Part shown: piece by piece, positions 31,002 through 41,206 of the stretch
Position numbering within the stretch: the stretch's first letter is position 1
Layout: every line of letters begins with the position of its first letter
Assembly: GCF_000600335.2 (NCBI RefSeq)
Contig: NZ_KK088555.1
Span: 1-64,000, forward strand
Length of the DNA: 64,000 nucleotides
Direction of reading: 5' to 3'
From: Rubellimicrobium mesophilum DSM 19309
Lineage (GTDB): Bacteria; Pseudomonadota; Alphaproteobacteria; Rhodobacterales; Rhodobacteraceae
Program-made: the position numbers and the translations under genes
The notes under the pieces: model-generated
What the model was told of the DNA's origin: nothing
Seen by the model: the letters and a program-made list of their open reading frames with translations, nothing else
Databases searched by the model: none

Positions 31002-31275
31002 GGCCCGCCACCTGCTGATCGGCGTGCCGCTGCTGCTCCTCGGCTGGATCGCCGTCCTCGCGCTGACGATGCGGCTCGGCGGCCCCGCGCCGGCCGCCCT
31101 CGTGGTGCTCCCGCCCGAAGGGTTCCTGCGCGCGCTGCCACCGGAGGTCAGCGTCACTTCCCGCAACATCCTGGGCCTCACGGCCACGGGTGGCCCGGGC
31201 CTCGTGGCCGAGCTCTATGCCGCCGGCGCGCCGCTGGTGCTGCCGGCGGGGCTCGCCTCCTGCCTCCGGCTCTGA
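30991..31275 (+). CDS. small hypothetical membrane protein
   Basis: This 94-residue protein has one N-terminal hydrophobic helix (HLLIGVPLLLLGWIAVLALT) and a short exported tail. It overlaps the preceding gene by 11 bp, and its last 60 bp overlap the convergent LLM gene on the other strand, so the true 3' end could be shorter in evolution than drawn. The tail ends in a hydrophobic stretch (AAGAPLVLPAGLASCLRL). Function is unknown. Confidence 0.5.
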   Translation: MTIRARHLLIGVPLLLLGWIAVLALTMRLGGPAPAALVVLPPEGFLRALPPEVSVTSRNILGLTATGGPGLVAELYAAGAPLVLPAGLASCLRL

Positions 31276-32237
31276 ACGTCGCGAAGCTGCGGCAGGACCT
31301 TCCCACCAAAGGCCTCGATGAAGTCCTCCTGGTTGCGCCCGACATTGTGCAGGTAGAATTCCTCGAACCCCAGCTCGCGATAGCGGCCGATCCATTCGAC
31401 GTGCCGGTCGAGGCTCGACGAGACGAGGAGCGACTCCGCCATGTCCTCGGGCCGGACGTGCTTCGTGGCCGTATCGAACTGCTCCGGGCTCCGGAGCTCC
31501 CAGTTCACCTCGCCGCCGAGCACGTTGTAGCGCCACTGCTCATGTGCGCCCCGGAGCGCCGCGTCCTCGCTCTCGGCCCAGCTCAGGCCCACTTGCATCA
31601 CGAGCTTCTTGCCCTCGCCTCCCCCGCGCCGGAAGGCCTCGACCACCTTGCGGACCTGCCCGGGCTCGCCGCTCGTGGTCAGGAGCCCGTCGGCCCAGCC
31701 GCCCACGAACCCGGCTGTCTCCTCGGTCACGGCGGCGCCGAGGATCGGGGGCGGTGTCGCGGGGCGGGAGTAGAGCTTCGCGTCGACCACCGTCACGCGA
31801 CCATGGTGGGACACCGCGTCGCCGTTCAGCAGCGCCCGGATGATCCCGGCGCACTCCTCCAGGCGCGCGTTCCGCTCCGATTTCTCGGGCCAGGGCAGGC
31901 CCGTGATGTCCTCGTTGAGCCGCTGTCCGCTCCCTAGCGCCAGCCAGAAGCGGCCGGGGAACATCTCGGCCAGCGTCGCCGCCGCCTGGGCCGCGACGGC
32001 GGGATGGTAGCGGTAGCCCGGCGCGGTGATCGAGCCCACGGGGAAGCTCGTCCGTGCCAGCGCCGCGCCCAGCCAGGACCAGGCGAAGCCCGACTGCCCC
32101 TGCGACGGCCCCCAGGGGCGGAAATGGTCCGAGCACTTCGCCGCGTCGAACCCCGCCTCCTCCGCGATCCGGACGAGGCCCAGGAGCTCGGAGGGCGGGA
32201 ACTGCTCGTGCGAGGCGTGGTAGCCGAAGCGGGGCAT
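31215..32237 (-). CDS. LLM-class flavin-dependent oxidoreductase
   Basis: This is a 340-residue TIM-barrel protein of the luciferase-like monooxygenase class. It begins MPRFGYHASHEQFPPSELLG and contains FDAAKCSDHFRPW, YRYHPAVAAQAAATLAEMFP and GRFWLALGSGQRLNEDITG, a pattern seen in the TIGR03885/TIGR03557 group. Some members use F420 and others FMN; the cofactor here is not certain. The ATG at 32237 follows AGGAGG. It lies downstream of the gmaS terminator and converges on the oxidase unit. Confidence 0.88.
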   Translation of the reverse strand: MPRFGYHASHEQFPPSELLGLVRIAEEAGFDAAKCSDHFRPWGPSQGQSGFAWSWLGAALARTSFPVGSITAPGYRYHPAVAAQAAATLAEMFPGRFWLALGSGQRLNEDITGLPWPEKSERNARLEECAGIIRALLNGDAVSHHGRVTVVDAKLYSRPATPPPILGAAVTEETAGFVGGWADGLLTTSGEPGQVRKVVEAFRRGGGEGKKLVMQVGLSWAESEDAALRGAHEQWRYNVLGGEVNWELRSPEQFDTATKHVRPEDMAESLLVSSSLDRHVEWIGRYRELGFEEFYLHNVGRNQEDFIEAFGGKVLPQLRDVQSRRQEASPAGSTSGAPAA

Positions 32238-32316
32238 GGCGGTCCTCCTGTGGAGCGGAGAAACCGGCCTACATAGCGGAGGTTCCTTGGCCGCGCCGGA
32301 GCCCACGAACGGCAAC

Positions 32317-32363: not shown

Positions 32364-33713
32364 TCACACGTCGAGGGTATTGTCGCGTTCCCATTGGGTG
32401 AAGTGGGAGCAGTAGCGGTTCCACTCGTCGGTCTTGAGCTTGAGGTAGGCGGAGGAGAAGGCCTCGCCCATCATGGCCTTGAGGGTGGGGTCCTGGTCGT
32501 AGGCGCGCAGGGCGTCGAGGAGGTTGAGGGGGAGCTTGGGCGCCCCCTGGACGGTGTGGCCGTCCTTGTACATGTCGATGTCGTGGCGCGGGCCCGGGTC
32601 GGCCTTGGTGCGCACGCCGTCGAGGCCGGCGGCGAGGATGACGGCCTGCATGAGGTAGGGGTTGGCGGCGCCGTCGGGGAGGCGGAGCTCGAAGCGGCCC
32701 GGGCCGGGGACGCGCACCATGTGGGTGCGGTTGTTGCCGGTCCAGGTCACCGAGTTGGGGGCCCAGGTGGCGCCCGAGGTGGTGCGGGGCGCGTTGATGC
32801 GCTTGTAGCTGTTCACCGTGGGGTTGGTGATCGCGGCCAAGGCCGAGGCGTGGGTCATGATGCCGCCCAGGAAGTGCCGGCCCGGCTCGGAGAGGCCGAG
32901 CTCGCGGGCGGGGTCGGCGAAGGCGTTGCGCTTGCCGTCGAGGTCCCAGACCGAGATGTGGGCGTGGCAGCCCGAGCCGGTGAGGCCGGGGAAGGGCTTG
33001 GGCATGAAGGTGGCGCGCAGGCCGTGCTTCTCGGCGATGCTGCGCATCATGAACTTGAAGAAGCTGTGCTTGTCGGCGGTCTTGAGGACGTCGTCGTACT
33101 TCCAGTTCATCTCGAACTGGCCCACCGCGTCCTCGTGGTCGTTCTGGTAGGCCTCCCAGCCCAGCTGGAGCATGTAGTCGCAGACCTCGGCGATGACGTC
33201 GTAGCGCCGCATCACCGCGTTCTGGTCGTAGCAGGGCTTCACCGCGGTATCAAAGGGGTCGGAGATCTGCTGGCCGTCGGCGGTGAGCAGGAAGAACTCG
33301 GGCTCCACCCCGGTCTTGACCCGCAGCCCCTCGCGGGCGGCCTCGTCGATGAGCCGGCGCAGGACGTTGCGGGGCGCCTGCTCCACCAGCTCGCCCTCCA
33401 TGGTGGCGGTGGCGGCGACCCAGGCCACCTCGGGCTTCCAGGGGAGCTGGATCACCGAGGACGGGTCGGGGATCGCCATCAGGTCGGCGTGCGCCGGGGT
33501 GAGGTCGAGCCAGGTGGCGAAGCCGGCGAAGCCCGCCCCCTCGACCGCCATGTCGGCGATGGCCTGCGCCGGGACCAGCTTGGCGCGCTGGCCCCCGAAC
33601 AGGTCGGTGTAGGAGATCATGAAGTACTTGACGCCGTGGGCGCGGGCGAACTCGGCGAGGTCGATGACGGCCTCCTCGGCCTCCCACGGCCCCTTGTGCA
33701 GATCCTGGAACAC
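32364..33713 (-). CDS. gmaS: gamma-glutamylmethylamide synthetase (glutamine synthetase III-like)
   Basis: GmaS ligates methylamine to glutamate with ATP, the first step of the N-methylglutamate pathway. A GTG at 33713 after GGGAG gives 449 residues. Glutamine-synthetase signatures are NDHEDAVGQFEMNWKYDD, GSGCHAHISVWD, SYKRINAPRTTSGATW and FELRLPDGAANPYL. The type III glutamine synthetase-like fold plus linkage to mgsABC and mgdABCD distinguishes it from housekeeping GlnA; alone, the sequence could also read as a glnT paralogue. It is the last gene of the mgsABC-gmaS run. Confidence 0.9.
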   Translation of the reverse strand: MFQDLHKGPWEAEEAVIDLAEFARAHGVKYFMISYTDLFGGQRAKLVPAQAIADMAVEGAGFAGFATWLDLTPAHADLMAIPDPSSVIQLPWKPEVAWVAATATMEGELVEQAPRNVLRRLIDEAAREGLRVKTGVEPEFFLLTADGQQISDPFDTAVKPCYDQNAVMRRYDVIAEVCDYMLQLGWEAYQNDHEDAVGQFEMNWKYDDVLKTADKHSFFKFMMRSIAEKHGLRATFMPKPFPGLTGSGCHAHISVWDLDGKRNAFADPARELGLSEPGRHFLGGIMTHASALAAITNPTVNSYKRINAPRTTSGATWAPNSVTWTGNNRTHMVRVPGPGRFELRLPDGAANPYLMQAVILAAGLDGVRTKADPGPRHDIDMYKDGHTVQGAPKLPLNLLDALRAYDQDPTLKAMMGEAFSSAYLKLKTDEWNRYCSHFTQWERDNTLDV

Positions 33714-33805: not shown

Positions 33806-35137
33806 TCAATACGGCGCCGCCCCGCGCCCGGGGATCCAGCTCGTGCCCGCGAGCGGCACCCCGGCCATGGCGGCGGCCTCGATGGTGAGCGCGCAGAGGT
33901 CCTCGGGCTCGAGGTTGTGCAGGTGCGACTTGCCGCAGGCGCGGGCGATGGTCTGCGCCTCCAGCGTCATCACGCGCAGGTAGTTCTTCAGGCGCCGCCC
34001 GCCCAGGACCGGGTCGAAGCGGCCGAAGAGCTCGGGGTCCTGCGTGGTGATGCCCGCCGGGTCGCGGCCCTCGTGCCAGTCGTCGTAGGCGCCCGCCGTG
34101 GTGCCGAGGCGGCGGTACTCGGCCTCGAGCGAGGGGTCGTTGTCGCCCAGCGCGACCAGCGCCGCCGTGCCGATCGCCACCGCGTCGGCGCCCAAGGCCA
34201 GCGCCTTGGCCACGTCCGCCCCCGAGCGGATGCCGCCCGAGACGATGAGCTGCACCTCGCGGTGCAGCCCGAGGTCCTGCAGCGCCTTCACCGCCTGCGG
34301 GATGCAGGCCAGCGTCGGCTGGCCCACGTGCTCGATGAACACGTCCTGCGTGGCCGCGGTGCCGCCCTGCATGCCGTCCACCACGACGACGTCGGCGCCG
34401 GCCTTCACGGCGAGCGCGGTGTCGTAGTAGGGCCGCGCGCCGCCCACCTTGACGTAGATCGGCTTCTGCCAGTCGGTGATCTCGCGGATCTCCAGGATCT
34501 TGATCTCGAGGTCGTCGGGCCCGGTCCAGTCCGGGTGCCGGCAGGCCGAGCGCTGGTCGATGCCCTTGGGGAGGTTGCGCATCTCCGCCACCCGGTCGGA
34601 GATCTTCTGGCCGAGCAGCATGCCGCCGCCGCCGGGCTTGGCGCCCTGCCCCACCACCACCTCGATGGCGTCGGCGCGGCGCAGGTCGTCGGGGTTCATG
34701 CCGTAGCGCGAGGGCAGCACCTGGTACACCAGCGTCCGCGAGTGCCCGCGCTCCTCCTCGGTCATGCCGCCGTCGCCCGTCGTGGTCGAGGTCCCCGCCT
34801 CGCTCGCGCCCCGCCCCAGCGCCTCCTTGGCCGGGCCCGAGAGCGAGCCGAAGCTCATGCCGGCGATGGTGACCGGGATGTCGAGGTGGATCGGCTGCTT
34901 GGCGTGCCGGGTGCCCAGCCAGACGTCGGTCGCGCACTTCTCGCGGTAGCCCTCGAGCGGGTAGCGCGAGATCGAGGCGCCGAGGAACAGGAGGTCGTCG
35001 AAGTGCGGCAGCTTCCGCTTCGAGCCGCCGCCGCGGATGTCGTAGATGCCGGTGGCGGCCGCGCGCCGGATCTCGGCGTTCTGGTCGTTCGAGAAGGTCG
35101 CGGACTGCTTGGGGGGCGTGCGCAGGAACTCGGTCAT
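33806..35137 (-). CDS. mgsC: N-methylglutamate synthase subunit C (GltS FMN-domain protein)
   Basis: This 443-residue protein matches the FMN-binding central domain of glutamate synthase: AGMSFGSLSGPAKEALGRGA, VGQGAKPGGGGMLLGQKI, IYVKVGGARPYYDTALAVKA and LIVSGGIRSGADVAKALALG. Cysteines in RSACRHPD and TLACIPQ are candidates for the iron-sulfur cluster. With MgsA and MgsB it would swap the methylamino group from gamma-glutamylmethylamide onto 2-oxoglutarate, giving N-methylglutamate. It lies 10 bp after mgsB. Confidence 0.9.
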   Translation of the reverse strand: MTEFLRTPPKQSATFSNDQNAEIRRAAATGIYDIRGGGSKRKLPHFDDLLFLGASISRYPLEGYREKCATDVWLGTRHAKQPIHLDIPVTIAGMSFGSLSGPAKEALGRGASEAGTSTTTGDGGMTEEERGHSRTLVYQVLPSRYGMNPDDLRRADAIEVVVGQGAKPGGGGMLLGQKISDRVAEMRNLPKGIDQRSACRHPDWTGPDDLEIKILEIREITDWQKPIYVKVGGARPYYDTALAVKAGADVVVVDGMQGGTAATQDVFIEHVGQPTLACIPQAVKALQDLGLHREVQLIVSGGIRSGADVAKALALGADAVAIGTAALVALGDNDPSLEAEYRRLGTTAGAYDDWHEGRDPAGITTQDPELFGRFDPVLGGRRLKNYLRVMTLEAQTIARACGKSHLHNLEPEDLCALTIEAAAMAGVPLAGTSWIPGRGAAPY

Positions 35138-35147
35138 GGATCAGACC

Positions 35148-35879
35148 TCAGTAGGACGACGCGTTGTCGACGTGGAAGGTGTAGAGCCGCCGGGCCGAGC
35201 CGTAGCGGCGGAACTGCGAGGGGTCGGCCTTGCCCTCGGCGAGGCCGCGCCGCAGCAGGTCCTCGAGGAGCGCGTGGTGCTCGGGCCGCATCTCCTTCTC
35301 GACGCAGTCGGCGCCCAGGGACTTCACCGAGCCGCGCACGAACAGCCGCGCCTCGTAGAGCGAGTCGCCCAGGGAGTCGCCGGCGTCGCCCAGCACCACC
35401 AGGTTGCCGGACTGCGCCATGAAGGCCGACATGTGGCCGATGCTCCCGTGCACCACGATGTCGATGCCCTTCATCGAGATGCCGCAGCGCGAGGAGGCGT
35501 TGCCCTTGATGACCAAAAGCCCGCCGCGGCCCGTGGCGCCGGCGTACTGGCTGGCGTCGCCCTCGACGATGACGGTCCCCGACATCATGTTCTCGGCCAC
35601 CCCCGGCCCGGCCGAGCCGTCGATGCGGATCGTGGCCTGCTTGTTCATGCCCCCGCAGTAGTAGCCGGTGGTGCCGCGCACGGTGACGTCGAGGGGCGCG
35701 TCGAGCCCCACGGCGATGGCGTGCGCCCCCTTGGTGTTGACGATCTCCCAGACCGTCTGGTTGGTGGGCTGGCCCTTGAGCGCGTGCAGCGTCTCGTTGA
35801 GGGCCCTCAGCCCCCGGGCGGCCAGGTCGAAGGTCTGGACGCTCTCGGCGTCGAGGCGGTTGGCGGTGGCGTGCAGCAT
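35148..35879 (-). CDS. mgsB: N-methylglutamate synthase subunit B (GXGXG domain)
   Basis: This 243-residue protein corresponds to the C-terminal GXGXG beta-helix domain of glutamate synthase. Repeats are visible in TGYYCGGMNKQATIRIDGSA, AENMMSGTVIVEGDASQYAG, GRGGLLVIKGNASSRCGISM and GSIGHMSAFMAQSGNLVVLG. It provides a structural, non-catalytic part of the split synthase. It lies between mgsA and mgsC on one strand with short gaps (55 and 10 bp). Confidence 0.9.
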   Translation of the reverse strand: MLHATANRLDAESVQTFDLAARGLRALNETLHALKGQPTNQTVWEIVNTKGAHAIAVGLDAPLDVTVRGTTGYYCGGMNKQATIRIDGSAGPGVAENMMSGTVIVEGDASQYAGATGRGGLLVIKGNASSRCGISMKGIDIVVHGSIGHMSAFMAQSGNLVVLGDAGDSLGDSLYEARLFVRGSVKSLGADCVEKEMRPEHHALLEDLLRRGLAEGKADPSQFRRYGSARRLYTFHVDNASSY

Positions 35880-35934: not shown

Positions 35935-36831
35935 TCAGCGTTCCCAGAAGTAGACGGTGGCGGGCTCGGGCTCCCAGACGCGGGCCGCCTCGATCCCCGG
36001 CAGCCCCACCATGGCCCGGTACTCCGAGCCGAAGGCCACGTACTGGTCGGTCTCGGCCATCACCGCGGGCTTGCAGGCGATGGGGTCGCGCACCACCCCG
36101 AAGCCGTTCCTCGTCCCCACCACGAAGGTGAAGAAGCCGTCGAGGTCCCGGAGCGTGCCCTCCATCGCCTCCCCGAGCCCCGCGCCCTCCTCCATCCGGT
36201 GGCTCAGATAGGCCGCCGCCACCTCGGTGTCGTTCTCGGTCTCGAAGCGCATCCCCGCGCGCCTCAGCCCGCGCCGCACCGCGTTGTGGTTCGACAGGCT
36301 CCCGTTGTGCACCAGGCACTGGTCGGCGCCCGTCGAGAACGGGTGCGCCCCCGCCGTCGTCACCGCCGACTCGGTCGCCATCCGCGTGTGGCCGATGCCG
36401 TGCGTCCCCGCCATCCGCGCGATCTCGAAGCGCGCCGCCACGTCACGGGGCAGACCCACCTCCTTGTAGATCTCGATCCCCTCGCCCGCGCTCATCACCT
36501 TGAGCCCCGGGCGCAAGGCCCGCACCGCCTCGCGCGCCGCCGCCAGACGGTCCGCCTCCACCTCGATCACCGCATGCGTGTCCTTGACCTCCAGCCCCAC
36601 ATGGCCGCCGACCTCGGCCCTGAGGTCGCGATCGAGACCCGCGAAGTCCGCCTCCGGATCCGCCGACTGCACCGTCAGCTTGCCCCGCCCCGCCTGCCCC
36701 CGCCCGTAGATCGCGATCCCGGCGCTGTCCGGCCCCCGGTCCGTCATGGTGATCAGCATGTCCGCCAGCATCTCCCCCAGATGCGGCTCCAGACGCGCAT
36801 CCTTCAGGAACAGCCCCACGATCCCGCACAT
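35935..36831 (-). CDS. mgsA: N-methylglutamate synthase subunit A (class II glutamine amidotransferase)
   Basis: This 298-residue Ntn-hydrolase begins MCGIVGLFLKDARLEPHLGE, with Cys2 as nucleophile, and has MTDRGPDSAGIAIY and the amidotransferase blocks GIGHTRMATES and CLVHNGSLSNHNAVRRGLRR. In this locus it would hydrolyse gamma-glutamylmethylamide and channel methylamine to MgsC. It is the first gene of mgsABC-gmaS, divergent from the transport unit with a 223-bp gap. Confidence 0.9.
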   Translation of the reverse strand: MCGIVGLFLKDARLEPHLGEMLADMLITMTDRGPDSAGIAIYGRGQAGRGKLTVQSADPEADFAGLDRDLRAEVGGHVGLEVKDTHAVIEVEADRLAAAREAVRALRPGLKVMSAGEGIEIYKEVGLPRDVAARFEIARMAGTHGIGHTRMATESAVTTAGAHPFSTGADQCLVHNGSLSNHNAVRRGLRRAGMRFETENDTEVAAAYLSHRMEEGAGLGEAMEGTLRDLDGFFTFVVGTRNGFGVVRDPIACKPAVMAETDQYVAFGSEYRAMVGLPGIEAARVWEPEPATVYFWER

Positions 36832-37009: not shown

Positions 37010-37054
37010 AGTTGACCGGGAGAACCTCGGCTCATCAACAAGGAGGAGGATGGG

Positions 37055-37342
37055 ATGCCGGCATCGGATCCGAGAATCGACACCATGCACCGACGGGACG
37101 TCGGCATCGCATGGGCCTTCGTCATCGGCTTGTGGTTTGCGATCTTGTTCGTGTTCTGGGCGGTCTGGGACATCGCGCCCTCGGGTCCGGCCCGGACGCT
37201 TCTCATGGTCGGGGGCATCGTGGTCCTGGCCTTCAACACCGCCGCCATCATGGCGATGCTGGCCCATTACCGCGAGGACCGGGACTTCATGTACGGCCTG
37301 GACCTCAAGTTCCTCGACGAACTCCGGAACGGGAGGAGGTGA
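37055..37342 (+). CDS. small membrane protein of the methylamine-locus transport unit (1)
   Basis: This 95-residue protein has two hydrophobic helices (VGIAWAFVIGLWFAILFVFW and TLLMVGGIVVLAFNTAAIMA) and a charged C-terminal tail HYREDRDFMYGLDLKFLDEL. AAGGAGGAGG precedes the ATG. It leads a plus-strand run of three mini membrane proteins and an APC permease, divergent from mgsA. I do not recognise a family; position suggests an accessory subunit of the permease. Confidence 0.75.
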   Translation: MPASDPRIDTMHRRDVGIAWAFVIGLWFAILFVFWAVWDIAPSGPARTLLMVGGIVVLAFNTAAIMAMLAHYREDRDFMYGLDLKFLDELRNGRR

Positions 37343-37344
37343 GG

Positions 37345-37725
37345 ATGGCCCGCTACCAACCACCCAAGCAGTCGAAGCTCGGGCAGATCCTCGACGTGAT
37401 CGTGCTCCTCGTGCTGACGGTCGCCGCGCTCTACCTCCCGCTCTACATGGGCCTCGCCGGCAGCGCGGCCGCGCCCCATCCCCAGGACAACCCGACCTGG
37501 GAGAGCCTCGGCCAGAACGCCACCATGGTCGAGCGCTGGAATCTGCTGGGCTACGCCGATCCGGCCTCGGCCCAGGACGTCATCACCTCGCGCTTCGACT
37601 ACTCCTTCAGCGTGGTCAGCCTCGTCGTCATGGTCGTGGTCCTGGTCGGCTACTTCGCGATGATGCTGCGGCTGAGCGAGAAGGAATATCGCGAGGTCAT
37701 CGCCGAGAAGTTCGGAAGGGAGTGA
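37345..37725 (+). CDS. small membrane protein of the methylamine-locus transport unit (2)
   Basis: This 126-residue protein has two helices (IVLLVLTVAALYLPLYMGLA and FSVVSLVVMVVVLVGYFAMM) separated by about 60 polar residues likely on the periplasmic side (HPQDNPTWESLGQNATMVER), with a charged cytoplasmic tail KEYREVIAEKFGRE. It starts 2 bp after the previous stop with a GGAGGAGGTGAGG ribosome site. No known family is recognised. Confidence 0.75.
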   Translation: MARYQPPKQSKLGQILDVIVLLVLTVAALYLPLYMGLAGSAAAPHPQDNPTWESLGQNATMVERWNLLGYADPASAQDVITSRFDYSFSVVSLVVMVVVLVGYFAMMLRLSEKEYREVIAEKFGRE

Positions 37726-37729
37726 GACC

Positions 37730-37897
37730 GTGGATTTCTGGACCTTGCTGGAATACGCGGCCTGGGCGCTCTCGGCGCTCTTCGCCGTGCTGATCGTGAC
37801 GGACTGGATCCGCACCGACTCGACCTACTCCGAGGACGTCCTGATGTCCTCGCGCGAGGGCGAGCTCGAGGCGATGACCGAGGAGCACCGGCTGTGA
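37730..37897 (+). CDS. 55-residue single-helix membrane protein (3)
   Basis: A GTG at 37730 opens a 55-codon frame: MDFWTLLEYAAWALSALFAV, one transmembrane helix, then LIVTDWIRTDSTYSEDVLMS and an acidic tail ending EEHRL. It lies between two coupled genes, 4 bp after the previous stop and overlapping the permease start by 4 bp, which argues that it is translated. Its function is unknown; it is probably a permease-associated peptide. Confidence 0.7.
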   Translation: MDFWTLLEYAAWALSALFAVLIVTDWIRTDSTYSEDVLMSSREGELEAMTEEHRL

Positions 37898-39313
37898 CGC
37901 AGCAGATGACGGACATCACCTCCCCCGTCGCCGATGGGATGGTGCACGCGACCAAGGTGGGCCTCGCGCGCGTCCTCGGCCCCGCCCATGTCTGGGCGCT
38001 GGGCGTCGGCATCGTGCTCGTGGGCGAGTACATGGGCTGGAACTTCGGCGTGGCGAAGGGCGGCGCCTATGCGGCGCTCATCGCCTGCTGGTTCGCGGGG
38101 ATCCTCTACACCTGCGTGGCCATGATCGACTCGGAGGTGACCTCCACGGTCGCCGCCGCCGGAGGCCAGTACACGCAGGCCAAGCACATCATCGGGCCGC
38201 TCATGGCCTTCAACGTGGGGCTCTACCTCGTCTTCGCCTACACGATGCTCGAGGCCGGGGAACGCCATCACCGTGGGCTTCCTCGTCGAGACCGTCGCCG
38301 GGATGACCGGGCACACGGGGCTGGACGTGCGGGCCTTCATCGTGCTGGCGATCATGTTCCTCGCCTGGCTGAACTACCGCGGCGTGCTGGCGACGCTGAA
38401 CTTCAGCCTCGTGATCACGGCGGTGGCCTTCGTGGCCGTCATCACCCTGTTCCTCGGCACCCGTCCCTGGAGCGACGCCTCGCCCCTCGCTCATGGGACG
38501 CTGGCCGCGCCGCTGCCCTACGGCTGGCTCGGCATCCTGGCGGCGATGCATTTCGGGCTCTGGTACTACCTCGGCATCGAGGGCACAACGCAGGCGGCCG
38601 AGGAGGTGCGCTCGCCGGCCCGCTCGCTGCCCTTCGGCACGCTGACGGGCATCATGACGCTCATAATCGCGGCGACGCTGACGTGGTACGTCTGCGTGGG
38701 CCTCATGCCCTGGGAGTACCTCGGCCAGTCGGGCGTGCCGCTCTTCGACGCGGCGCGGATGACGGGCTCGACGGCGCTGATGGTGTTCCTCGGGATCGGG
38801 ACGCTCTTCGCGACGCTGGCCTCGGCCAACGGTTGCATCAACGACGCCTCGCGGGCCTGGTTCTCGATGGGCCGCGACCACTACCTGCCGCAGTGGTTCG
38901 GGGCGGTGCACCCGGTCTACCGGACGCCCTACCGCTCGATCGTCTTCCTCGTTCCCATCGCGCTCATCTTCGCGCTGGGGGCGCCGCTCGACCAGGTCAT
39001 CACCTTCTCGATCCTGTCGGGCCTTCTGGGCTACACCTTCATGCCCATCAACATGACCCTGTTCCGGCGCAAGTGGCCGCTGGACACGATCAAGCGGGGC
39101 TACGTGCACCCCTTCCACCCGATCCCGGCCATCGTGCTCATCACGCTCTGCGCGATCACCTACTTCGCGGTGTTCCTGGGCTACGGGACGCAGCTCATCG
39201 CCATGGTGAGCTTCTACATCGTGGCCTCGCTCTGGTTCCACTTCCGGCGCTACAAGTTCGTCAAGCGCTCCGACCAGTTCACGATGCCCTGGCCCAAGCC
39301 GCGCGGCTACTGA
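37894..39313 (+). CDS. APC-family amine/amino acid permease (one frame break in the assembly)
   Basis: This is a secondary transporter related to ethanolamine permeases. The frame opens MTQQMTDITSPVADGMVHAT with VWALGVGIVLVGEYMGWNFG and GQYTQAKHIIG. It breaks in a run of four G at 38257-38260; removing one G joins FAYTMLEAG to NAITVGFLVETVAGMTG. The rest shows GLWYYLGIEGTTQAAEEVRS and YRTPYRSIVFLVPIAL. About 472 residues with some 12 helices result. The setting inside the methylamine locus suggests import of methylamine or a related amine; this is inference. Confidence 0.85.
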
Positions 39314-39363: not shown

Positions 39364-40038
39364 GTGGACGACATCGCCCTCCTCCTCGTCGCCGCGCTGG
39401 GCCTAGGCATCCTCGGCTGGCAGGCCCGCCGGCTGTCGCGCGCCTCGGCCGCGCGGCGGGCGGCCCGCGCGGGGTTCCTCGACGCCTGCGCCACTCTCCT
39501 CTCCGACACCCGCAAGCGGGTGGAGCCCGACGGCTTCCCGCGCCTCGCCGGCGCCTCGGGGGGCGCCCGCTTCGACCTCCGCGTGGTGCCCGACACCCTG
39601 ACGACCCGCAAGCTCCCCGCCCTCTGGCTGCTCGTCACGCTGACCGAGCCCCTGCCGCTGCCCGCGACCTGGCACCTGATGCTGCGCCCCCGGGGGACCG
39701 AGACCTTCTCCGCCTTCGATCGCCTGCCCCACATCCTGCCCCCGCAGCCCGGCCTGCCGGAGGACAGCCAGATCCGCACGGATTCGGGCGGCACGCCCCC
39801 GCCCGTCCTGGCCGAGATCGTCGCACGCCTGGGCGAGGACCGCCTCAAGGAGGTCGTCCTCTCGCCCAAGGGCCTGCGAATCACCTGGCTCGCCGAGGAG
39901 GCGAATCGCGGCCGCTACCTGATCTTCCGGGACGCTGAGATGGGGCTGGAGCCGCTGCCGCCCGACACCCTGGCGCCGCTCCTCGACGCCCTCCTCGACC
40001 TGCGCGCGGGCCTCCAGCCGGAACGGCGCCGCGCATGA
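39364..40038 (+). CDS. conserved hypothetical protein with an N-terminal helix
   Basis: This 224-residue protein starts at a GTG. One hydrophobic helix (IALLLVAALGLGILGWQARR) is followed by a soluble domain with RFDLRVVPDTLTTRKLPALW and LVTLTEPLPLPATWHLMLRP. No catalytic motif is evident. It lies 50 bp after the permease and overlaps the next gene by 4 bp, so it belongs to the same transcript. Function is unknown. Confidence 0.65.
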   Translation: MDDIALLLVAALGLGILGWQARRLSRASAARRAARAGFLDACATLLSDTRKRVEPDGFPRLAGASGGARFDLRVVPDTLTTRKLPALWLLVTLTEPLPLPATWHLMLRPRGTETFSAFDRLPHILPPQPGLPEDSQIRTDSGGTPPPVLAEIVARLGEDRLKEVVLSPKGLRITWLAEEANRGRYLIFRDAEMGLEPLPPDTLAPLLDALLDLRAGLQPERRRA

Positions 40039-40304
40039 AGCCCCTGCCTCCGCCCCTGGTCCTCGCCGTCGCGCTCGTCCTGCCCGGCATGGGGCAGGTG
40101 CTGAACCGCCAGCCGACGCGCGGCCTGATCTTCGCGTTCTTCACGCTCCTCCTCGGCGCCTTCACGCTGGTCACGGCGGACCCGGGCGTCTCCTGGGTCG
40201 GCAAGCTCTCGGGCGGCCTCTTCGTGCACGCCCTCGCCGTGCTCGACGCCTACAAGCACGCCCGCATCCGCACCGAGCTCCTCAACTCTGCGGGTAGGAG
40301 ATGA
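40035..40304 (+). CDS. small hypothetical membrane protein
   Basis: This 89-residue protein has hydrophobic stretches LVLAVALVLPGMGQVLNRQP and GLIFAFFTLLLGAFTLVTAD plus a third weaker one. The PGMGQ(x)LNR pattern resembles small membrane proteins of the DUF5683/TM2-like type. Its last 23 bp overlap the 3' end of the convergent XRE-cupin gene. Function is unknown. Confidence 0.6.
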   Translation: MKPLPPPLVLAVALVLPGMGQVLNRQPTRGLIFAFFTLLLGAFTLVTADPGVSWVGKLSGGLFVHALAVLDAYKHARIRTELLNSAGRR

Positions 40305-40959
40305 CGGAGAGGTATCGGGCGGGGAGTTGGTTGAGCTCTTCGGGGCCGTGGCGGGCGTCGGCGTCGAAGAGGAGGCTGTCGCCGGGTTTCAGGTGGAAGA
40401 GCTGGTCGCCGTGGCGGTAGGTGACCTCGCCCTCGAGCATGTAGAGGAGCTCGATGCCGTCGTGCTGGAAGGTGGGGAAGGTGTCGGACTGCCCGGTGAG
40501 GGTGATGAGGTAGGGCTCGACGACGACGCCGGAGGTGTTGGAGCCGATGTGGCCCAGCAGGTGGTACTGGTGGCCGGCCCGGGTGCCGCGGCGCTCGATC
40601 TCGAGGTGCTCGCCGGCGCGCACGTGCTGGACCTCGCGGCGCTCCTCGTAGCGGCGGAAGAAGGCGGTGAGGGGGGCGGAGAGCGCGTGGCTCAGGATCT
40701 GCAGGGTGGTGAGCGAGGGCGAGGTGAGGCCGTTCTCGATCTTGGAGAGCATGCCGATGGAAAGGCCGGTGGCCTGGGCGAGGTCGGCCACGGTCATGCC
40801 CTGGCTGCGGCGGAAGGTGCGCACCTCGCGGCCGATGGCGGTCTCGAGGTTGCGCTCCGCGAGTTCGCGGACGCGGTGGGGGTCCTGGGTCAGCCCCGGC
40901 TTCTGGCGCGCGGGGGCCGGGGCGGCGTCCTCGGGCTCGGGCTCGTGGTCCTGGGGCAT
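40282..40959 (-). CDS. XRE-cupin transcriptional regulator of the methylamine locus
   Basis: This 225-residue regulator has a helix-turn-helix domain (GREVRTFRRSQGMTVADLAQ, ATGLSIGMLSKIENGLTSPS) and a C-terminal cupin domain (ELLYMLEGEVTYRHGDQLFH, LKPGDSLLFDADARHGPEEL) that would bind a small effector. This layout is that of PuuR/SutR-type repressors. The ATG at 40959 is chosen because the upstream extension lacks homology. A 7-7-7 palindrome sits 24 bp upstream. It probably senses the amine or a pathway product. Confidence 0.88.
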   Translation of the reverse strand: MPQDHEPEPEDAAPAPARQKPGLTQDPHRVRELAERNLETAIGREVRTFRRSQGMTVADLAQATGLSIGMLSKIENGLTSPSLTTLQILSHALSAPLTAFFRRYEERREVQHVRAGEHLEIERRGTRAGHQYHLLGHIGSNTSGVVVEPYLITLTGQSDTFPTFQHDGIELLYMLEGEVTYRHGDQLFHLKPGDSLLFDADARHGPEELNQLPARYLSVISYPQS

Positions 40960-40982
40960 GGCGCTCGGCGCTCTCCGGCCGT

Positions 40983-41003
40983 ATGTTTCTTCGCATGAAA
41001 CAT
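40983..41003. promoter_or_regulatory. operator candidate upstream of the XRE-cupin gene
   Basis: ATGTTTC at 40983-40989 and GAAACAT at 40997-41003 form inverted 7-bp arms with a 7-bp spacer (TTCGCAT). The site lies just upstream of the regulator's start and would suit autoregulation. A related site is found at 36991-37009. Confidence 0.5.
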
Positions 41004-41026
41004 GTCGCCACTCCGGCCGAGGTGTC

Positions 41027-41206
41027 AAGGCCAGCGGCCCGTCAGCTCGCTTCGCCGACCCGCGCCGCTCGGAGGCGGCGCTGCGGCTCCTCGCGCGCCA
41101 GGGCGTGACGCTGGGCGGCTTCTCGGGCGGGGTCTTCCCGCTCATGCGCGCGCAGGCCATGGGCCGGCATCGCCCCTCGGTGCACTGGTGCTACGAGGGG
41201 CCCTGA
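41027..41206 (+). pseudogene. GlxA/GbdR-type AraC regulator fragment
   Basis: The plus-strand frame ending at 41206 reads FADPRRSEAALRLLARQGVT, then LGGFSGGVFPLMRAQAMGRH and RPSVHWCYEGP. This resembles the middle of the DJ-1/PfpI-like domain of GlxA-family regulators (VTLGG-SGG, then a -VHW- strand). No start, N-terminal part or AraC HTH domain is present, so it is a remnant of about 59 codons. GlxA-type regulators often control quaternary amine and sarcosine genes, which fits the locus. Confidence 0.5.

Follow-up and report, generated by a model that had tools for sequence, protein, structure and literature searches.

The locus and its six-gene module

The window analysed here is a stretch of 64,000 nucleotides of Rubellimicrobium mesophilum DSM 19309 (contig NZ_KK088555.1, positions 1 to 64,000), in which three genes for small membrane proteins, called s1, s2 and s3, directly precede the gene of a permease of the APC superfamily. 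Two further genes, g5 and g6, follow the permease gene. The six genes s1-s2-s3-permease-g5-g6 form one module, which is laid out as follows.

37055..37342, + strand: s1, 95 aa, two membrane helices (~16-34 and ~49-67) and a conserved end with the consensus HYREDRDFMYGLD
37345..37725, + strand: s2, 126 aa, two membrane helices with a conserved loop of ~55 residues between them
37730..37897, + strand: s3, 55 aa, one membrane helix and a conserved tail, SSREGELEA
37894..39313, + strand: APC-superfamily permease, ethanolamine-permease-like, GTG start at 37894, frame change between 38254 and 38273
39364..40038, + strand: g5, 224 aa, an N-terminal membrane helix followed by an alpha/beta domain
40035..40304, + strand: g6, a membrane protein of 89 aa with ~3 hydrophobic stretches, overlapping g5 by 4 bp

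The original prediction for this DNA described open reading frames of 95, 126 and 55 residues with two, two and one membrane helices, separated by gaps of 2 bp (s1-s2) and 4 bp (s2-s3) and ending in a 4-bp overlap of s3 with the GTG start of the permease. The positions of the reading frames in the window and their hydropathy agree with this description in full. The strong ribosome sites ascribed to each small gene were found for s1 and s2, which have AGGAGG upstream (37041-37049 and 37334-37339), but not for s3, which, like the permease, is preceded by a weaker G-rich stretch as read from the window sequence. AGGAGG occurs 155 times in the whole window versus a mean of 52 in shuffled sequence. 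A consensus scan found no promoter or terminator inside the operon, although such a scan says little for a G+C-rich genome. The prediction overlooked g5 and g6, which relatives keep behind the permease.

Linkage of the permease to its small partners

The linkage of these genes was followed in both directions, and genomes and loci are cited below by our own G and L numbers. For the s2-first set, genomes were scanned with an s2 alignment and the best 80 of 190 loci were taken. For the permease-first set, scans of 198 genomes of the family, 385 of the class, 398 of the phylum and 8 of the genus gave 27 testable genomes with a permease of at least 64% identity (8, plus 5, 12 and 2 more), a 28th genome (G979) being excluded as untestable because its locus ends at a contig end. 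The two sets overlap and are not independent (e.g., L022/G010, L065/G021 and L016/G982).

Starting from the permease, s1, s2 and s3 were present in order in 27 of 27 genomes, the s1 gene of G021 being cut by a contig edge. Starting from s2, the permease was present in 80 of 80 loci and all six genes stood in order in 77, the other three being cut by contig ends. The genes are also tightly packed. Spacing is at most 30 nt between s1 and s2 in 84 of 87 loci, between s2 and s3 in 86 of 87 and between s3 and the permease in 85 of 87. The g5 and g6 genes are as close in 83 of 84 loci (median -4), and the permease-g5 junction is looser (17 of 84, median 59). Plasmids gave the same picture: a single set of 22 records carries both s2 and a permease of at least 64% identity, the next plasmid permease standing at 34%, and s1 and s3 are present in all seven of these records that were checked (L009-L015). 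Several of the plasmid permeases that match at about the 30% level are annotated as ethanolamine permease. The same gene run lies on annotated plasmids of Paracoccus, Aminobacter, Sinorhizobium, Pararhizobium and Pseudohalocynthiibacter, where the module genes other than the permease are labelled hypothetical protein (s2 and s3 of L014 are unannotated), and the module also reaches beyond the class, to G901 and to a Paraburkholderia. In the methylotroph Paracoccus aminophilus JCM 7686, which has a separate methylamine dehydrogenase route as well (PMC4543880), the module stands next to mgsABC-gmaS. Hence, the co-occurrence that the original prediction proposed to check extends well beyond the window: far from being missing in most genomes that carry this permease, the three small genes are found together in every one of the 27 and the pairing recurs in the 22 plasmid records.

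More distant permeases are arranged differently. In the phylum scan the next permeases had at most 32% identity, and 37 of the 51 matching genomes held only such proteins. None of the seven loci of distant permeases (~30% identity) examined over 1.5 kb per side contained s1, s2 or s3 (L173-L178 from six phylum-scan genomes and L160 from the family scan). Given linkage in 27 of 27 genomes and 80 of 80 loci versus 0 of 7 for the distant proteins, the module permeases are a compact subfamily that is always accompanied where this can be checked. The constant linkage of carrier and small genes expected of a multi-subunit transporter is thus what was found in both sets, and the presence of the small genes in all 27 genomes and in the same 22 plasmid records makes such a transporter the best reading of the module. 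A shared operon alone is no proof of contact, and s1-s3 could in principle carry out an unrelated membrane activity that merely travels with the permease. The completeness of the linkage, the fixed order and the recurrence of the run on plasmids and outside the class argue against this, and we consider it the slimmest of possibilities.

The permease itself was examined for integrity and family. In the window it is split over two frames, 37894-38253 and 38273-39313, which the original prediction overlooked. The frame is open in two genomes of the same genus (G982, which is the source of L016, and G976) and in 76 of the 79 s2-first loci that have both halves. Of the remaining three loci, L065 is an artefact of start choice, whereas L043 and L084 appear broken. 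Since the frame is intact in relatives, the window carries either a recent break or an error in the sequence, and the idea that the permease is normally broken was rejected. The C-terminal piece encoded in the window matches PF00324 (E value 3.4e-24) and PF13520 (E value 1.8e-20), which places the protein in the APC superfamily. The best curated family is the ethanolamine permease family TIGR00908, matched by the permeases of four of four relatives over nearly their full length with 173.8-192.6 bits. However, all four fall far under the equivalog cut-off of 381.75 bits. Near its start the permease has the motif EYMGWNF[AS]VGKGG, which 86 of 87 loci share, 80 of them in precisely this form and the others with slight deviations. 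We take this motif to lie in the first transmembrane helix and to resemble that of ethanolamine permeases. By sequence, the best match in the PDB (query, the permease of relative L009) is GkApcT (5oqt), which originates from Geobacillus.

In Sinorhizobium meliloti Ak57 (L014:14392-15966) s3 and the permease lie in one frame of 524 codons, either a natural fusion or a sequence error. As one case in 87 loci, possibly a sequence error, this fusion was set aside as proof of contact.

Selection, families and predicted structures of the partners

To judge the small genes as genes we calculated the ratio of nonsynonymous to synonymous substitution rates (dN/dS) over 13 hand-picked pairs of relatives. 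The values were 0-0.22 for s1, 0-0.16 for s2 and 0-0.25 for s3, and these low ratios show s1, s2 and s3 to be real genes. In the same pairs dN/dS did not exceed 0.10 for the permease, 0.34 for g6 and 0.35 for g5, leaving aside one g5 pair whose ratio of 0.70 is based on a dS of 0.01.

The proteins lack ready family assignments. The s1, s2, s3 and g5 proteins of the window match no Pfam or NCBIfam model at cut-off. Among the matches listed, the best Pfam E values were 5.2e-4 for the 31 aligned members of s1, all of whose matches were weak, and 5.5e-4 for the aligned members of s2. The top Pfam match of the window s2 was SP_C-Propep with 20.1 bits versus a cut-off of 25, and the best Pfam E value of the g5 members was 0.018. 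Members of the g6 family resemble DUF6677 in 25 of 30 cases and DUF5683 in 17 of 30 (E values up to 1), and the window g6 shows the same resemblance weakly, under cut-off. In four loci of one genus outside the family of the window (L097-L100) s2 aligns over 155-157 columns versus 121-127 in most others, which points to an insert of ~30 residues.

Small partners of LeuT-fold carriers are already known. Sodium:solute symporters, which share the LeuT fold, have small partner proteins of two helices (DUF4212 and DUF485). The module proteins s1, s2 and g6 show no relation to DUF4212. On profile comparison with hhalign, they had probabilities of 0.3%, 1.8% and 0.3% of being DUF4212 relatives, all below 2%, against a thin DUF4212 profile of 6 sequences. 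Neither DUF4212 nor DUF485 was among the Pfam matches listed for s1, s2 and g6 of the window or for their aligned members (the first 25 of 42 matches for s1 and 25 of 28 for s2), nor was DUF485 among those listed for the window s3. A single DUF485 locus turned up. The s1 and s2 proteins are not relatives of each other. A parallel in kind is GkApcT, a homologue of the CAT/SLC7 carriers, which was crystallised with MgtS, a single-pass membrane protein of one helix, lying against transmembrane helix 5 (PMC5803215). In that structure, however, MgtS is an Escherichia coli protein bound to a foreign carrier, whereas the partners of the module permease are genetically linked to it and number three to five. 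The SLC7-SLC3 heteromers described in the same paper (PMC5803215) also combine an APC carrier with a membrane-anchored partner, but the module has no large heavy chain: its small partners are of 55-126 aa and g5 is of 224 aa. We found no description of the module, nor of any bacterial APC carrier regularly joined by three small membrane proteins and a further pair of genes, in the parts of the open literature that our search returned, although this is weak evidence of absence.

The AlphaFold2 model of s2 has two helices and the intervening conserved loop, with a mean predicted local distance difference test score (pLDDT) of 82.8 and a predicted template modelling score (pTM) of 0.39, which is low global confidence. 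The g5 model is confident (pLDDT 94.4, pTM 0.89). Sequence searches of the PDB gave no credible relative of either protein (best E values 0.22 for s2 and 1.1 for g5, the sole match of the g5 profile being an unrelated chain). By Foldseek the best structural match of the g5 model was 7tm3_4 (E value 1.5e-3, probability 0.99), all other matches having E values of at least 0.12. The TM-scores of this match are only 0.38/0.28 and its root-mean-square deviation is 9.2. Entry 7TM3 concerns an intramembrane chaperone for multipass proteins, and its chain 4 is probably CCDC47, judging from the chain length and the architecture given in PMC7505659. The 11 families listed for 58 g5 members (E values up to 10, HMMER filters on) do not include a CCDC47-type family. 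The likeness of the predicted g5 fold to this part of the eukaryotic multipass translocon is weak and offers a speculative lead. No similar likeness was seen for s1-s3, of which s2 alone was modelled and its model was not submitted to a fold search.

This match raises the main alternative, in which some of the partners (g5 and g6 at the least, perhaps all the small proteins) would serve as dedicated factors for assembly or quality control, aiding the insertion and folding of the permease and departing afterwards instead of staying as permanent subunits. The confident g5 model and its best fold match speak for it, but the low TM-scores and large deviation of the superposition, the lack of sequence support and the indirect identification of CCDC47 (PMC7505659) make this alternative unlikely as an account of the module. 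A bolder variant joins both ideas: a bacterial LeuT-fold carrier whose function would depend on a hetero-oligomer of as many as six different membrane proteins, comprising the carrier, three small subunits with s2 as a periplasmic lid, and a g5-g6 pair in which g5 would share the CCDC47 fold. We regard this variant as quite improbable. If it were true, it would link a bacterial dedicated transporter-assembly factor to the eukaryotic PAT complex.

The N-methylglutamate pathway and the substrate

Upstream of the module, and divergent from it, lie genes resembling those of the N-methylglutamate pathway. The neighbours of the module are the following.

32364..33668, - strand: gmaS-like gene (glnT, type III glutamate-ammonia ligase family), named from relatives, start codon assigned in this analysis
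33806..35137, - strand: mgsC-like gene, FMN-binding glutamate synthase domain protein, served as the pathway marker
35148..35879, - strand: mgsB-like gene, GXGXG protein, named from relatives
35935..36831, - strand: mgsA-like glutamine amidotransferase gene, divergent from s1, assigned by gene order in relatives
40282..41160, - strand: regulator with helix-turn-helix (HTH) and cupin domains, behind g6, occurring beside N-methylglutamate genes both where the module is present and where it is absent

A luciferase-like monooxygenase gene (31215-32315, - strand; PF00296, E value 1e-46) is the immediate neighbour of gmaS.

With MgsC as the marker (counted in the class at 70% identity or more, there being no matches between 55% and 70%), the pathway was found in 52 of the 385 class genomes, two of the 52 matches being partial. 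Among the permease-first genomes, 23 of the 25 tested had MgsC at 68% identity or more, as had 22 of 22 with at least 90% completeness and at most 5% contamination. In the class sample the module was present in six genomes, five of which have MgsC (one-sided Fisher test, 2e-4, uncorrected for kinship), a value that is overstated because four of the five genomes belong to one genus (g236). A pathway gene of at least 60% identity lies inside the locus in 38 of the 80 s2-first loci. For 41 of the other 42 the genome was tested (L033 was left out), and in 38 of these MgsC is encoded elsewhere. The original prediction had called the small proteins specific to methylamine loci. These counts bear this out only in part: in 42 loci there is no pathway gene, and conversely many pathway genomes lack the module, as described below.

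Taken together, we read the six genes as encoding one APC-type importer with several subunits, which would supply the N-methylglutamate pathway with methylamine or a closely similar small amine, and put the probability of this reading at roughly 0.52. The linkage in both directions, the fixed gene order, the purifying selection and the co-occurrence with the pathway were observed; the complex, the orientation of its parts, the direction of transport and the substrate are what we infer from them. Of the original suggestion of a multi-subunit amine importer, or a transporter with small subunits, the linkage thus supports the general form, whereas the complex and the transport itself stay conditional. 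The carrier would be the APC-type permease, surrounded by s1, s2 and s3 as obligate and permanent small membrane subunits. The conserved loop of s2 is probably periplasmic and near the entry, and the conserved charged tails of s1 and s3 would lie in the cytoplasm. The g5 and g6 proteins may assist assembly or regulation of the transporter, and methylamine or a similar small amine would be brought in for GmaS.

Several points weigh against this importer. The module is absent from 47 of the 52 pathway genomes of the class sample, which makes it an option for the pathway and not a part of it. More than half of the s2-first loci (42 of 80) have no pathway gene, and some of these adjoin tyrosine-degradation genes (L010 and L011). 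MgsC is missing from the genomes of L076, L049 and L065, and also from that of L060, a locus counted among the 38 on the strength of a gmaS-like gene that is the only pathway gene nearby. Of the permease-first genomes, G021 (79% complete, the source of L065) has no MgsC and G268 (82% complete) has a match of only 52%. In rhizobia a gene of the glutamine synthetase family with 27-28% identity to GmaS stands just upstream of s1 (L015:12073-13425). The pTM of the s2 model is low, as noted above. Finally, genes of one operon co-evolve whether or not their proteins touch, and this applies to the distance correlations of 0.84-0.91 between the operon genes and the permease (74 loci).

The GmaS-like gene of 27-28% identity is also found near the module in L051, L057, L062 and L089, and perhaps encodes a ligase for another amine. 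The tyrosine-degradation genes near the module on plasmids are hmgA and hppD in Aminobacter (L010:17580-22890) and hmgA in Pseudohalocynthiibacter (L011:23051-24412). Tyrosine-derived amines were considered as substrates and ruled out, hmgA being near only 6 of 80 loci.

A multi-subunit carrier could also be built for another substrate, such as ethanolamine, another primary amine, N-methylglutamate or gamma-glutamylmethylamide. The closest curated family is that of ethanolamine permeases, and some of the loci without a pathway gene lie beside other amine or amino-acid genes. Against this stand the pathway marker in nearly all module genomes tested and the pathway gene within the locus in 38 of 80 cases. 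We consider such a substrate possible, if somewhat doubtful.

The module might also be a transceptor, in which the permease and its small partners sense amines and signal to the cell. The conserved tails of s1 and s3, presumably on the cytoplasmic side, and the soluble domain of g5 would suit this role, and the HTH-cupin regulator adjoins the module in the window and in some relatives. However, when the mgsC regions were fetched from 20 of the 47 module-less pathway genomes, mostly those with long contigs, a relative of this regulator was present in 15 of the 20. Hence, the regulator belongs to the pathway and looks like a general regulator of it. Moreover, Pfam matches of a signalling type were weak only (Sensor_TM1, E value 0.14, in one g5 member; MHYT, E value 0.021, in two s2 members). 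A transceptor is, in our judgment, highly unlikely.

The same 20 regions hint at what may take the place of the proposed methylamine importer. An Amt gene is present in six of them (L135, L137, L144, L149 and L150, with an edge piece in L138), adjoining mgsA in L137 and L150, and in none of the 80 module loci. Amt and the module may therefore be alternatives for a single slot, a reading that is only suggestive because the two samples differ in taxonomy. The finding of Amt near mgs genes without the module agrees with the published gmaS-mgsABC-amt operon of Pseudomonas sp. C5pp, where Amt is termed an inner-membrane methylamine transporter (PMC8292978), and with the recurrence of amt in clusters of Rhodobacteraceae (PMC7574528). 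In such operons, as at the module, a transport gene is placed with N-methylglutamate genes (PMC8292978), but Amt belongs to another superfamily than the module permease. The Amt proteins of L135, L137, L144 and L150 score 184-215 bits against PF00909 versus 416 for that of L149, with hardly any match between the two kinds. The former four are possibly a distinct Amt subfamily of pathway loci. A further report lists amino-acid-permease homologues among the genes said to be methylamine-responsive in Methyloversatilis universalis (PMC5023235).

The passages of the literature that we consulted name Amt in some N-methylglutamate operons (PMC8292978, PMC7574528) and say little else on transport. If our reading of the module is true, methylotrophs that use the N-methylglutamate pathway would gain an identified importer of methylamine. 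Conservation of s1, s2, s3 and g5, none of which has a family name, extends over the Alphaproteobacteria and to further Pseudomonadota. APC carriers are usually regarded as functioning singly or, in animals, together with a heavy chain. Tiny subunits that are always present would, if true, give the APC superfamily a new architecture.

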